Below are positions 7,334 through 31,790 of a stretch of 31,790 nt of DNA, piece by piece. How positions within the stretch are numbered: position 1 is the first letter of the stretch; each line of letters starts with the position of its first letter. The notes under the pieces are model-generated. The model was not told the DNA's origin and did not search any database. It was given only the letters and a program-made list of their open reading frames with translations. The stretch covers positions 1 to 31,790 of IMG/VR virus record IMGVR_UViG_3300030106_002678; one strand, written 5' to 3'. Both the position numbers and the translations under genes were made by a program. The stretch is from a virus.

Positions 7334-9169
7334 TTAATTTTTAAATCCCATTTTATTCCAATATGCAGATGTGTAACCTTTGTTTGCCATATTACGAGGG
7401 GCTATTGATACTTTCTTTGCATTTTTCTCAGGTCTAAATCCTTTGTTTATTGCTTGATTTGTACTTACTGTATTTCCTAATGATTTGTTACCTTCTTTTC
7501 GTGCGTATATTCTTCTGGTCCATCTATGCGAACATCTAGCGCCACCTTTATAAAGCCATATAGAATACGTGCTTGCACCATTCTTACCAAATCCTGCATT
7601 AACAACTTTGTTATCCATTGCCTTTATATCTTCTTTACGATAAACTTTTTTTGCGTTCATCATCTTAATACAAAATTCTCTTGACTTACCTTTTCTTGTT
7701 TTATATCCAGCACTATAAGGTGTGTACATATATCTTACCAAAAAGATGACATCTTCTTGTCCTTTCTTTTTTGACTTGCCATCTTGTTTACTGTCTCTGT
7801 ATGGTTTTGCACTTCCTGTGTTTGCGAGTTCTGTCTTTTCGTTCAATTCTGAAATTTTATGATCCAACTCGTTTTCTGTTTCGTAATCTACTTCAAACTC
7901 ATCTATGAGATCATATTTTTCTAATAACTCGTTTTCATCTTCTCCCAAATCTATCAAAGCATCTGCTACATCATTGTCTATGTATTTGTCTAAATCACTG
8001 CCTAAACTAACGCAACAAGCCTCCTCGCTTAATTTAACGCCTGTTTCCTCCTCTTTCGTTTCTTCATCCTCTACATTCTCCAAGTCGGTAAATTCGAGCG
8101 GTTGTAGGGTCTTAAAATAAAGATTTAGAGAAATCTTGTTGTATGCCAATATTTTATCAAAGCAGTCAATCAGTAAATGTTGGAAAGGTCTGATAACTGT
8201 ATTGTCTAATAATATAGATGCAGTTTTTAATTCATCTGCATTGTTTCCTAATCCTGATTGGTCTTTGATACCAATAAGCATAGGAGATACAATACGATGT
8301 GCTACCATTATCTTTCTTGTACTTTCTTCACTCAAGAACTGATATTGTTGGTGAGCATCTGATAATTGAACAGGGTCGATACTTGCCGCTGTTTCTGCAT
8401 TGTCATTGAAAGCAAGAATGAATTTACCAGCATTAGAACTGCCAGAAAACTTTTGTGATATTCTTTGTTCAATAAGTTCTCTTTCCTCTTCATTTGGCAC
8501 GCCATTGTTGAAATTAATCAACATACTTGGACTCATACCATTCATAATATTATTTAAATGGAAATTACCTACTTCTTCTTCTAGTTCTGCATATTGCAAA
8601 CCACCCTGATAATCTACAGGACTATAATAATGATAACCTGCTCTATAAGGTTTTATATATAATATTTCTATTGATTCGTTACTCTTGCTGAACGCAGGTA
8701 TTCTTTTTAGTTTGCTTTGTGGTTTGTATTCTGCCCAATCGTGAAAATAATAATAAGCATTTATTTCTCCATCCTCTCCAGACTTTTCTGCTCTTAATGT
8801 TTCTACAGGAAAATGCTCTATTTGTGCGATTGTCTTTCTGTCTTTAGAATAAATAATTTGTATTGAACATTGTCCCATTAATTTCAAATCATAGCAAAGT
8901 TTTCTTATACAATCATTATTAAATAAAGAGACCATCTTAGCATACTCTTCAGGCTTTCTGCTACTGTCTGTAGCATCCAAACCTTTGCCAAAAATCATTG
9001 CGGAAATCGCGTTTATAATCGCGTTGTTTGTTGGACTGCCGTTGTATCTGTCTATAAGATATTTAAAGTAGTTGTTGTCATCTCCATATCCAATCCATTC
9101 TTTGTTCTTGTATTCAACAACTTTAGGTGTGGTGTAACTGCTTAAATTTATAACTCTTAAATCGTTCAT
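7334..9169 (-). CDS. Portal protein with extra C-terminal domain
   Basis: A 611-aa protein. Residues 1 to about 390 have the HK97/PBSX-type portal order: a cap region with NAIINAISAMIFGKG (49-63), a wing, the stem-like EEVGNFHLNNIMNGMSPSMLINF segment and the SPMLIGI-plus-acidic linker. The portal is the dodecameric ring through which DNA enters the head. After an acidic linker comes a domain (about 480-611) with SREFCIKMM, VYRKEDIKAM, VNAGFGKNG, YSIWLYKGGARCSHRWTRR. In other Bacteroidota phages I recall this domain attached to prohead-protease proteins, so its fusion to the portal is unusual. ATGA overlap with the gene upstream. Confidence 0.75.
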   Translation of the reverse strand: MNDLRVINLSSYTTPKVVEYKNKEWIGYGDDNNYFKYLIDRYNGSPTNNAIINAISAMIFGKGLDATDSSRKPEEYAKMVSLFNNDCIRKLCYDLKLMGQCSIQIIYSKDRKTIAQIEHFPVETLRAEKSGEDGEINAYYYFHDWAEYKPQSKLKRIPAFSKSNESIEILYIKPYRAGYHYYSPVDYQGGLQYAELEEEVGNFHLNNIMNGMSPSMLINFNNGVPNEEERELIEQRISQKFSGSSNAGKFILAFNDNAETAASIDPVQLSDAHQQYQFLSEESTRKIMVAHRIVSPMLIGIKDQSGLGNNADELKTASILLDNTVIRPFQHLLIDCFDKILAYNKISLNLYFKTLQPLEFTDLENVEDEETKEEETGVKLSEEACCVSLGSDLDKYIDNDVADALIDLGEDENELLEKYDLIDEFEVDYETENELDHKISELNEKTELANTGSAKPYRDSKQDGKSKKKGQEDVIFLVRYMYTPYSAGYKTRKGKSREFCIKMMNAKKVYRKEDIKAMDNKVVNAGFGKNGASTYSIWLYKGGARCSHRWTRRIYARKEGNKSLGNTVSTNQAINKGFRPEKNAKKVSIAPRNMANKGYTSAYWNKMGFKN

Positions 9170-9531
9170 ACTATTATATAATCATTATCGTGCGAGCCTG
9201 ATGTTTCATCAAACGTGAACTGTCCATTATTGATATCGTAATGATTGTTGTTCGCTTGATTAATTGTTTGGTCTGTGCAAAATACTTTGTCTTTGTACAC
9301 CGTTGCACTGCCACTCAACAAATTCAGATCATAATATCTACCTTCTTTAAGCACAGGGCTAAAAGTTGCAGACAATCTTTTAAAATTGCCAGAATCAGAA
9401 GCACTTACAGTCGATGAAAATACTTCTTTGTTCTTGCTTGTATCTCTTAATTTTAAAGTATATGATGATGCGTATGTTCTGGGTATCACATCAATATTCT
9501 GTGCAGAACTACTTGTTGTCAAAACCTTCAT
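9166..9531 (-). CDS. Structural-module protein of Bacteroidota phages
   Basis: A 121-aa beta-rich protein (MKVLTTSSSAQNIDVIPRTY, SYTLKLRDTSKNKE, YYDLNLLSGSATVYKDKVF). An in-frame upstream ATG at 9573 would add 14 residues, but the ATG at 9531 is chosen because an A-type promoter ends exactly 3 nt before it. This small protein is typically found next to the portal gene; I do not know its function (possibly a head decoration or collar protein). It is the first gene of the last late transcript and is followed by the portal with ATGA coupling. Confidence 0.6.
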   Translation of the reverse strand: MKVLTTSSSAQNIDVIPRTYASSYTLKLRDTSKNKEVFSSTVSASDSGNFKRLSATFSPVLKEGRYYDLNLLSGSATVYKDKVFCTDQTINQANNNHYDINNGQFTFDETSGSHDNDYIIV

Positions 9532-9534
9532 ACT

Positions 9535-9562
9535 TATATATCGAAATATTAAGGCGATTTTG
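9535..9562 (-). promoter_or_regulatory. A-type phage promoter 1
   Basis: Minus strand: CAAAA (9562-9558), 14 bp, CGATATATA (9543-9535), then AGT and the ATG at 9531. One of five copies of the same bipartite element; the distance from CAAAA end to the TATATA hexamer is 17 bp. It lies just after the terminator at 9572-9598, so it restarts transcription of the portal-fibre-lysis block. Confidence 0.7.
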
Positions 9563-9571
9563 TATAGGTGC

Positions 9572-9598
9572 AAAAAAAAACCCCCTACAATGAGGGGG
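9572..9598 (-). terminator. Intrinsic terminator, island 2 (copy of 10011-10036)
   Basis: Minus strand: CCCCCT (9598-9593), loop CATTGT, AGGGGG (9586-9581), then nine T (9580-9572). It ends the 96-aa gene. The 26 bases 9573-9598 are identical to 10011-10036, the terminator of the RNA island upstream. Confidence 0.88.
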
Positions 9599-9614
9599 AT
9601 ATTTATTTTGAGGA

Positions 9615-9905
9615 TTAAACTGTAAATCGTTTTCTGTCAGCCCAGTTGTCTTCCCACAATTGATTGTGATACACTTCTAATATATCATAAGCAACATTAT
9701 CAATTTCGCCATTGTAGTAAAGGTTTTGTAAATAGTCAACGAAATCATTTTTTTTATCTGAAGGTTTAAAATTTTCATCAAAGATTTGATTAATATATAT
9801 TTCAAATAAATCCGAACACATAACTGCGTTTAATTTATTGGTCTTACAGGTAAATTCGATTAATAATTTGGCTAATTTTTTGCCGTATTTTGTAGTTTTT
9901 TTCAT
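9615..9905 (-). CDS. Moron-like gene product, unknown
   Basis: A 96-aa soluble, mostly helical protein (starts MKKTTKYGKKLAKLLIEF; ends WEDNWADRKRFTV) with two Cys. No motif recognised. It stands alone between its own host-type promoter (9929-9961) and its own terminator, inside the structural gene region, and is flanked by two identical 26-bp terminator copies. That is the anatomy of a phage moron: a gene expressed independently of the lytic program. Its leader shares 13 nt (AAAAAACAGAACA) with the first gene of the replication operon. Confidence 0.6.
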   Translation of the reverse strand: MKKTTKYGKKLAKLLIEFTCKTNKLNAVMCSDLFEIYINQIFDENFKPSDKKNDFVDYLQNLYYNGEIDNVAYDILEVYHNQLWEDNWADRKRFTV

Positions 9906-9928
9906 TGTTCTGTTTTTTAATTATACCA

Positions 9929-10000
9929 CTAAGATAATAAAAATATTAATACAATTAACAATTTTCAATAAAATATTTGTTTTTTTTTTCTCTACCTCTG
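9929..10000 (-). promoter_or_regulatory. Boxed host-type promoter, island 2
   Basis: Minus strand: box CAGAGGTAG (10000-9992), A-tract, TTATTGAAAATTGTTA segment, TTG (9961-9959, 22 bp spacing; a second TTG at 9954 gives 15), and -7 box TATCTTAG (9936-9929), with a TATAAT run just after it. The same box, A-tract and -7 box recur upstream of the RNA island and of the 78-aa gene, with box to -7 distance conserved at 54-56 bp. Confidence 0.55.
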
Positions 10001-10010
10001 GATATTTGTC

Positions 10011-10036
10011 AAAAAAAACCCCCTACAATGAGGGGG
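10011..10036 (-). terminator. Intrinsic terminator of the RNA island
   Basis: Minus strand: CCCCCT (10036-10031), loop CATTGT, AGGGGG (10024-10019), then eight T (10018-10011). It marks the 3' end of the proposed noncoding RNA and is a duplicate of the one at 9573-9598. Confidence 0.88.
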
Positions 10037-10224
10037 CTCTCTTACTCGAGTCGCTCATATTTAATCTGTTTCCCTTATACAGGTACTCTAAATAGCGGTG
10101 CGCTTCCGTAATTGAAAATATCAGGAAATAGATACAGGGCATTTCGTGCGTGGCATCTGCCCCCTGATGTTTTAAATATTTTAAAGAACGTAAATACTTC
10201 AAATACCTATTCTATTTTCTTACA

Positions 10225-10279
10225 TTGAGGTGGTTTACACTATATTATGTTTCAAATTTTATGATGTGTCTTGCAACTC
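10225..10279 (-). repeat. RNA module copy 1
   Basis: A 22-bp left arm (10225-10246) and 25-bp right arm (10255-10279) are identical to copy 2; the 8 bases between them differ. In RNA sense, GUUG (10277-10274) can pair with CAAU (10227-10224) and ACAC (10269-10266) with GUGU (10240-10237). The centre lacks the GC-rich hairpin seen in copy 2. Confidence 0.75.
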
Positions 10280-10382
10280 AATCAATGAACTTTCAAAGTG
10301 CTCCGGAGTGTTAAGAGTATTACTACACTTAAACATTCTTGGAGTTTCATACTACTAGAAAACAATTCAATAAAGGCTTTCG

Positions 10383-10439
10383 TTGAGGTGGTTTACACTA
10401 TATTGGGCTGTCCCAATTTTATGATGTGTCTTGCAACTC
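10383..10439 (-). repeat. RNA module copy 2
   Basis: Second copy of the module: identical arms (10383-10404 and 10415-10439) around a different 10-base centre. In RNA sense GUUG pairs with CAAC, ACAC with GUGU, and the centre forms a perfect AUUGGG/CCCAAU hairpin with tetraloop ACAG (10417-10402). The outer pair changes from G-U in copy 1 to G-C here, a compatible change that keeps the pairing. Confidence 0.75.
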
Positions 10440-10515
10440 GCTAAGCATCATTATTCCTTCTTGCTTGTCGGTATTTTCAGTATTTCAATGAACGTTTGTA
10501 ATTGTTATTACATAG

Positions 10516-10588
10516 CTAATATACGAAACTTTTTAATATAATTGACATTTTTTAATAAAAATCGTAATATTTTTTTGCTCTACCCCTG
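10516..10588 (-). promoter_or_regulatory. Boxed host-type promoter, RNA island
   Basis: Minus strand: box CAGGGGTAG (10588-10580), A-tract, TTATTAAAAAATGTCA, then -7 box TATATTAG (10523-10516). The -33 reads ATG rather than TTG (22 bp spacing), so it may be weak or need an activator. Transcription would begin near 10510. It is homologous to the promoters of the 96-aa and 78-aa genes. Confidence 0.5.
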
Positions 10589-10620
10589 TAAAATATTTTA
10601 AAAAAAATAAAAAAAACACA

Positions 10621-10643
10621 AAAAAAAAGGGGCAAATGCCCCT
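10621..10643 (-). terminator. Intrinsic terminator after tail tube gene
   Basis: Minus strand: AGGGGCA (10643-10637), loop of 2, TGCCCCT (10634-10628), then T-tract (10628-10621). It ends the capsid/tail-tube transcript and isolates it from the RNA island. Confidence 0.88.
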
Positions 10644-10666
10644 ATTTTCTTTACCATAACTCTATC

Positions 10667-11185
10667 CTAATTTGGTTGAATTGGCGAACTCGCATCATCT
10701 GATGGAGATGCTGCACAGAAGAATGGTGGATTTGTTTCTTGTGCAGTCAATACTATCGTAAATCCTGACAATTCTTGCATCCCTGATCCCGTGACTATTG
10801 TTCCCCCAGTGACATCACATCCGTGTATCTTACCTAATAAGAAAGCATTACCATTGTAATCCTCTACAACTACTTGTGGTCTACCGTGAGCAAGTAATTT
10901 AATCTGCTCTTGTGTAGCCTTATCTAAAAATTGTAATGTGACGTTCAATGTGCTTTCGTAGAAAGTTGTTCCATTCTCTCTTGAAGAGTTTATGGTTGTT
11001 TCTAAAGAAGAGTTACCTTTTAAGTCATATCTGAAAAAATCAACAGAGCCATCAAGTGTTACCTCACCATCTGAAACTGCTAAATCTCTTGTCGTATTAC
11101 TGTAGTTTGAGAAGAAAATATATCTCAATCCACCTACTCCTGACTTACACGCTAAGCCTCTTCCGTTTGTTATATTACAAGCCAT
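10667..11185 (-). CDS. Major tail tube protein
   Basis: A 172-aa beta-rich protein starting MACNITNGRGLACKSGVGGLRYIFFSN. A head of the form MAC.xTNGRGLxCKxxVGGL is typical of the major tail (tube) proteins of Bacteroidota siphoviruses and myoviruses. The rest alternates strands and ends in a Pro/Ser-rich tail. It would polymerise around the tape measure to form the tail tube. It lies after the major capsid gene and before a strong terminator, which fits a highly expressed structural gene. Call from family recognition. Confidence 0.65.
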   Translation of the reverse strand: MACNITNGRGLACKSGVGGLRYIFFSNYSNTTRDLAVSDGEVTLDGSVDFFRYDLKGNSSLETTINSSRENGTTFYESTLNVTLQFLDKATQEQIKLLAHGRPQVVVEDYNGNAFLLGKIHGCDVTGGTIVTGSGMQELSGFTIVLTAQETNPPFFCAASPSDDASSPIQPN

Positions 11186-12643: not shown

Positions 12644-13258
12644 TTATTTATTTATTATTTGTTCCATTACTCTATCCAATGTAGACATCCTTCTGTTTTG
12701 TGCAAACTTGAATCCTCTACTAGTCTTTTCTTGTTCAGGACTGTGTTTGAGTGGCTCAGCAGCAGGTTGAGATAACTCTTGTTTTAGAGCCTCTTTTTCT
12801 TCTGCTTCGCTATTCAAAACTTCCGTTACTGCTAAAGATACCTTTTCTTCTAAATCACTAGACATTTCTTCTTTGTCTTTGTGGTCCATCATCTTATTGA
12901 TATGCTCTTTTAATTCATCCATTTCTTTTCTGAACTCCTCTCTTGTTACATATCTAGCATCCACTTTTTCTTCTTCTTCTTTATCATCTTCTTTGTCATC
13001 CTCGTGTTCTGCATTCTTGATTTCTTTAATCATACCTTCTTCCTCAACAACAAGAACTCTAGCATCCTCAAGTTCGTACTCTCCTACAGGTAGAGCAACT
13101 TTTTCATCTTCCGTTTTAATAAAAACTTCTTTGCCTGATTCGAAAACTTCCGCTTCCAAAACAGTTCCATTCTCTAACTTGAGTTCTGCTAATTGAATAT
13201 CAGACAACTCAACTCCAAGAATGTTTTTTACTTGTTTCAATACTTCTGTCGCTTTCAT
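12644..13258 (-). CDS. Head scaffolding-like protein
   Basis: A 204-aa highly charged protein. Residues 1-80 could form a small beta domain (EVFESGKEVFIKTEDEKVALPVGEYEL); residues 85-165 are Glu/Lys/Asp-rich coiled coil; the C-terminus is basic with the hydrophobic tip LDRVMEQIINK, the usual capsid-binding end of a scaffold. It directly precedes the decoration and major capsid genes. An A-type promoter ends 3 nt before its ATG. Confidence 0.6.
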   Translation of the reverse strand: MKATEVLKQVKNILGVELSDIQLAELKLENGTVLEAEVFESGKEVFIKTEDEKVALPVGEYELEDARVLVVEEEGMIKEIKNAEHEDDKEDDKEEEEKVDARYVTREEFRKEMDELKEHINKMMDHKDKEEMSSDLEEKVSLAVTEVLNSEAEEKEALKQELSQPAAEPLKHSPEQEKTSRGFKFAQNRRMSTLDRVMEQIINK

Positions 13259-31483: not shown

Positions 31484-31740
31484 TATCTGGATAGTTTTTC
31501 TAGTTCAAATTTTAAGTGATTGATTGCTTTCTGTATGTCGCTGTTTGGAGTTTCGTGTTTTTTGTAAGCTCGTAGTATGTAGGTGCAAGCAGTTCCTAGA
31601 TTGTAATTCAGATCAAAGTTTTCTACAACCTCTCTTGCCGTGTAACCATTTGCACCATCATAATACTTTGGAGTTTTTATTTTGGAAACTATCTTATAAC
31701 TTCCAAATTGTTCATCATAACCTTCAGAATGGCAAGGCAT
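31483..31740 (-). CDS. DUF3310 family protein
   Basis: An 85-aa protein. Residues about 25-85 (YYDGANGYTAREVVENFDLNYNLGTACTYILRAYKK, then DIQKAINHLKFELEKL) follow the DUF3310 pattern found in many phages, sometimes annotated as nucleotide kinase-like although the activity is not established. The start codon also lies in the left terminal repeat (ATG at 49), so across the junction it overlaps the SSB-like gene by 17 nt. Confidence 0.65.
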   Translation of the reverse strand: MPCHSEGYDEQFGSYKIVSKIKTPKYYDGANGYTAREVVENFDLNYNLGTACTYILRAYKKHETPNSDIQKAINHLKFELEKLSR

Positions 31741-31789
31741 CTTCTCTATCTTCGTTTTGGTCTGCTAATTGCAATTCTTTTTTTAACTC
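31692..31789. repeat. Right copy of 98-bp terminal redundancy
   Basis: Identical to bases 1-98; the final base 31790 (A) differs from base 99 (T). It contains the start of the DUF3310 gene, so its partner sequence downstream is supplied by the left end of the window. Confidence 0.93.
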
Positions 31790-31790
31790 A

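Follow-up and report, generated by a model that had tools for sequence, protein, structure and literature searches.

A candidate accessory non-coding RNA gene at an exchange site between structural genes of a marine Bacteroidota phage

When accessory genes turn up at phage hotspots, they are generally taken to encode proteins. The moron sites of lambdoid prophages also carry genes for small RNAs, AgvB and AsxR, which antagonize host small RNAs; these are Hfq-bound molecules of 51-60 nt with a conserved 3' part and a variable 5' part (PMC4104026). The phage-encoded RNAs GOLLD and ROOL are long and apparently non-coding, many members of GOLLD exceeding 800 nt (PMC12286853), and RNA-seq of phage ICP1 has revealed an abundant transcript of ~800 nt that contains no open reading frame (PMC7567579).

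The locus described here lies in the viral record IMGVR_UViG_3300030106_002678, which was analysed over its whole length of 31,790 bp (the window) and whose genes run on the minus strand. Because the first and last 99 bases (1-99 and 31692-31790) match at 98 of 99 positions, with no exact end repeat, the contig is probably a complete genome of ~31.7 kb that is either terminally redundant or circular. The protein content (portal, terminase and major capsid protein) is that of tailed phages of Bacteroidota. The major capsid protein has hundreds of marine viral relatives, and the nearest isolates by protein are the Nonlabens phages P12024L/S, at 30% identity. A sequence-only reading of this DNA had singled out an ORF-free stretch of about 500 nt with a duplicated module, and had proposed that it may encode a large structured RNA of a new class comparable to GOLLD and ROOL. 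The anatomy that it described is largely right, and a separate non-coding unit of ~500 nt without an Rfam match remains from its interpretation; the large ornate structured class is not supported. An accessory RNA gene fits the evidence better than such a class does.

An exchange site between structural genes

Relatives were fetched by the capsid protein (80 records) and by a neighbouring protein (another 80), and these gave 75 distinct loci for comparison. The site of interest is flanked on one side by the gene that follows the major capsid gene and on the other by the one that precedes the portal gene. It is empty in 50 of the 75 distinct relatives, where the flanking genes are 40-82 nt apart with one terminator between them, at the position of the window terminator that forms the left border of the insert (Table 1) and followed directly by the downstream gene. 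The same gap in the window measures about 1 kb and holds two cassettes, one for the RNA and one for a 96-aa protein. Some larger gaps in relatives consist of tandem copies of the downstream gene (a group with 482-495 nt and probably another with 205 nt). In some relatives the gene at 9166-9573 is present in tandem copies; its listed TTG start falls within a terminator, and judged from relatives its translation probably begins at the internal Met of MKVLTTSSSAQ.

True inserts occur in ten relatives, most of them with their own promoter and terminator. The occupants include a Cys-rich ORF (L013, L014 and L100), a 44-aa ORF (L078 and L147), other small ORFs (L146, L154, L158 and L167) and, in L015, an apparently non-coding body. 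Most of the other cassettes at the site code for small proteins. As expected of a moron, few members are occupied at a site that is otherwise empty in close relatives, and the window cassette carries, by its sequence signals, a promoter and a terminator apart from the flanking operon. Within the sequences searched, no other phage had the window RNA cassette.

The L015 cassette occupies the same site, and its promoter together with the first ~30 nt of its RNA is 97% identical to the window over 120 nt. Past this common 5' part the L015 body runs for about 450 nt (L015:7658-8145), and only an AT-rich stretch of it resembles the window RNA. The body shows neither coding homology nor a match to Rfam, and its 42-codon frame, which has a neutral codon score, was rejected as a gene for want of codon or homology support. 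It also contains GGGGGTTAGAGTCCCCC, a look-alike of a tRNA T-arm, in an RNA in which ARAGORN finds no tRNA. Among the coding cassettes, L013 and L100 on the one hand and L078 and L147 on the other have a promoter in common and different bodies. Because L015, L013/L100 and L078/L147 all keep promoters with different bodies, the site seems to evolve by body exchange behind a kept promoter.

Anatomy of the two window cassettes

The promoter-like element and strong terminator noted from the sequence alone were both recovered, along with a second terminator that closes the upstream gene (Table 1). In F. psychrophilum, the flavobacterial sigma-A -7 box TAnnTTTG sits at -12..-5 (PMC9723704); when the TATATTAG box (10523-10516) is set at these positions, the predicted +1 is 10511, and the predicted product is therefore an RNA of ~500 nt that opens with the GUAAU-aaca-AUUAC hairpin. 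The DNA of this hairpin is a perfect inverted repeat and could serve as an operator. Exact matches to CAGRGGTAGAG are found at two sites only in the window, and in 1.04 Mb of relatives at the L015 promoter and in one coding match only. In each of the three class-A cassettes (the RNA, the 96-aa gene and L015, there at L015:7582) the element lies upstream of the promoter, and it is a candidate regulator site.

Table 1. Coordinates of features in and around the insert
Feature	Position	Strand	Remarks
Intrinsic terminator at left border of insert, closing the structural gene upstream (10667..11185)	10619..10643	-	same position in insert-free relatives
CAGGGGTAGAG element upstream of RNA promoter	10578..10588	-	exact CAGRGGTAGAG match
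Predicted -7 box TATATTAG, flavobacterial sigma-A type	10516..10523	-	one mismatch to TAnnTTTG
Candidate non-coding RNA, ~500 nt	10011..10511	-	between promoter and terminator; no coding signal; no Rfam match; MFE z -2.5
5'-terminal hairpin GUAAU-aaca-AUUAC, 5 bp	10498..10511	-	predicted; also in L015 RNA
Module copy 1, 57 nt	10383..10439	-	25-nt arm 10439-10415; centre 10414-10405 (GGGACAGCCC); 22-nt arm 10404-10383
Predicted hairpin between modules	10301..10344	-	pair probabilities >0.8
Module copy 2, 55 nt	10225..10279	-	25-nt arm 10279-10255; centre 10254-10247 (TGAAACAT); 22-nt arm 10246-10225
Predicted long hairpin AUCAGG...CCUGAU, 3' third	10120..10168	-	15 pairs with probability >0.8
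Strong terminator of the RNA	10011..10040	-	10036-10011 and 9598-9573 identical (26 nt)
Second CAGAGGTAGAG element, upstream of 96-aa gene promoter	9990..10000	-	CAGRGGTAGAG
Predicted promoter of 96-aa gene, TATCTTAG	9936-9929	-	from sequence
96-aa protein gene, second cassette of same insert	9615..9905	-	codon score +0.16, coding-like
Terminator of 96-aa cassette	9598-9573	-	from sequence

The promoter of the 96-aa gene is 74-75% identical to that of the RNA over 72-92 nt, the CAGRGGTAGAG element included, and the 96-aa protein has no relative in PHROG, Pfam or viral contigs. The terminators of the two cassettes have 26 bases in common, and the 96-aa cassette is therefore bracketed by perfect direct repeats, through which recombination could add or remove cassettes. 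The type III toxin-antitoxin systems ToxIN and CptIN have the gene order promoter, repeats, terminator and small ORF. The similar order here would allow the insert to be read as a pair of that type, a repeat RNA followed after its terminator by the gene for the small 96-aa protein. This is a long shot: the repeats do not follow one another head to tail, a separate predicted promoter precedes the 96-aa gene, and the product of that gene matches no Pfam or PHROG family.

The claim that the stretch contains no ORF holds in substance rather than to the letter. The longest frame has 59 codons from a TTG start (10023-10202, minus strand) and stops within the terminator hairpin. Its codon score of -0.23 is that of non-coding sequence (real genes score +0.05 to +0.49), a frame as long arose in 43 of 500 shuffles, and it was rejected as a gene in view of its codon usage and lack of homologs. 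Two short frames that both end in ELQDTS* have no coding support either and are a trivial outcome of the repeat. The main rival to a functional RNA is a decayed or recombining cassette, that is, a former small-protein moron that has lost its gene and now holds non-functional DNA between a promoter and a terminator. Small proteins in most other cassettes at the site agree with such a history, as does the marginal structure signal described below, and the 42-codon frame of L015 could be a remnant. On the other side, no frame in the window or L015 body resembles any protein in relatives or phage records, the promoter and terminator are intact, and a perfect duplication of arms with differing centres is unexpected for neutral DNA. 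A decayed cassette is a possible but somewhat unlikely explanation.

Sequence comparison confirmed that the module is present twice, with arms that are identical at 47 of 47 bases (25 + 22 nt), whereas the copies diverge in their centres (10 and 8 nt) and at most flanking bases. The copies are 158-160 nt apart, with unrelated sequence in between. Identical arms between differing centres and flanks suggest selection on the arms; alternatively, the identity could reflect gene conversion or a recent duplication of part of the sequence. The modules might also matter as DNA, the RNA being irrelevant, if they were quasi-palindromic sites (GAGnTG....ACAC / GTGT....CAnCTC) for a recombinase or regulator, for example sites that mark cassette exchange. 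The arms are indeed imperfect inverted repeats of one another, with 9 complementary positions, and the site is a cassette-exchange hotspot. However, the modules lie inside the cassette and not at its borders, they are missing from all other occupied sites examined, their centres differ in length by 2 bp, and a scan of window proteins, which covered a subset of the ORFs, recognised no integrase-like gene. We therefore consider a role as DNA sites very improbable.

Folding, homologs and possible targets

The full RNA folds better than its shuffles (MFE z = -2.5). The body without the terminator has z = -1.8 and is matched by 2 of 50 shuffles. Of 12 windows of equal length (474 nt) from the same genome, most of them coding, the values range from z = -1.6 to +1.3, another of them being -1.5. 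The excess folding of the ~500-nt RNA is thus marginal and within reach of coding windows, and the modules folded singly (z = -1.1 and -0.8) are not significant, so the structure proposed by the sequence-only reading was not confirmed as significant. The best-supported structural elements in the predicted fold are the terminator and the long hairpin at 10168-10120, around which a 120-nt window gives z = -1.9. By their pair probabilities, the two module copies are predicted to fold differently: copy 2 makes its own outer stem, and copy 1 pairs with upstream sequence. RNAalifold found 9 consensus pairs for the two copies, none of them changed on both sides. A change from G-U to G-C between the copies had been taken to preserve pairing in the outer helix; it is no proof of structure, since it is one-sided and falls in one of two competing registers. 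The additional 6-bp hairpin reported for one centre (ATTGGG/CCCAAT, 10417-10402) stands as a prediction, its place being the copy nearer the 5' end of the RNA.

No Rfam family reached its gathering score in the window, and the GOLLD, ROOL and OLE models found no match in 9540-10700 even at E values up to 10. The search for homologs yielded none for the body or the module in collections of viral contigs, phages, plasmids and Bacteroidota. Exact module and arm patterns found nothing beyond chance in viral contigs or genome contigs, blastn of the RNA found no homolog in phages and plasmids, and 50 related virus records contained none. Matches of the RNA to 396 Bacteroidota genomes did not exceed chance, and the same was true of a covariance model built from the two copies and run over 297 genomes. 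As for a CRISPR array or an anti-CRISPR RNA that mimics its repeats, no match of the RNA recurred in the 396 sampled Bacteroidota genomes. Several apparent matches were rejected: one to L003 lies inside a DNA polymerase gene, those to L180 and L185 are coding sequence, and those to L170-L174 involve the right arm only. A boxA-like reading of GTTCTTTAAAATATTT (about 10190-10172), an AT-rich stretch on which several Bacteroidota hits fall, was also dropped, as none of the checked loci is at an rRNA operon.

These results bear on the idea that the locus represents a novel class of large phage RNA with an elaborate fold, like GOLLD and ROOL. The unit is about 500 nt long, phage-encoded, apparently non-coding and equipped with its own promoter and terminator, and the z score of the full RNA and the lack of an Rfam match would fit. 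Against this, coding windows come close to the z score of the body (about -1.8), there is no covariation between the two copies, no homologs were found, the RNA is shorter than GOLLD, with its many members of >800 nt (PMC12286853), and ARAGORN found no tRNA in the whole window. Membership in such a class is, in our judgment, quite improbable.

A search for targets within the genome gave a single lead. Positions 10331-10346 of the RNA are perfectly complementary over 16 nt to 13211-13226, codons 11-16 of a scaffold-like gene (12644..13258), a length equalled in 2 of 1000 shuffles. Duplex energies at several other gene starts are similar, the matching segment lies in a predicted hairpin and the match is missing from the L015 RNA. 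Antisense control of the scaffold-like gene was accordingly not adopted as an explanation, and the match serves as a lead only.

A proposed role and its parallels

The reading that we prefer, and to which we would give about an even chance, is that the locus is an accessory (moron-type) non-coding RNA gene at a hotspot of a marine Bacteroidota phage, made during infection and acting in trans, probably directed at the host or a rival. In the simplest version of this model, the host sigma-A-type polymerase would transcribe the RNA during infection, independently of the structural operon, and the transcript would stop at its own terminator. The RNA would then act in trans, probably via the two identical arms, with the two 47-nt copies perhaps serving as equivalent binding sites for a single partner from the host or the phage. 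That partner could be an RNA or an RNA-binding protein, which the RNA would titrate or regulate.

A broader proposal is that marine Bacteroidota phages possess exchangeable RNA-only cassettes, in which a promoter and 5' end stay fixed while bodies of about 480-500 nt are swapped at a structural-gene hotspot, the window RNA being an effector that presents two identical binding sites to a factor of the host or of a rival phage. This is speculative and, as it stands, unlikely. If it is true, surveys based on ORFs only overlook part of the phage arsenal, and the promoter signature (CAGRGGTAGAG plus TATATTAG) offers a handle for finding more such cassettes.

The candidate accessory RNA gene can be set beside several known systems. 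Type III antitoxin RNAs consist of head-to-tail repeats, unlike the two spaced copies in the window, and are followed by a toxin of the ToxN/CptN/TenpN fold. The transcript of phage ICP1 provides a parallel as a long ORF-less unit between phage genes, although it was observed by RNA-seq and the window transcript is a prediction. The window RNA resembles GOLLD and ROOL in being long, phage-encoded and apparently non-coding; unlike them it has neither a sequence or structure match nor a tRNA neighbour (GOLLD and ROOL are often beside tRNA genes), and it was found in one phage only. Compared with AgvB and AsxR, the window RNA is far longer, belongs to a Bacteroidota phage, and has its promoter and 5' end in common with L015 and its body variable. 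Like them, it would be an RNA gene at a phage site of accessory-DNA swapping, with one part shared and the other variable.
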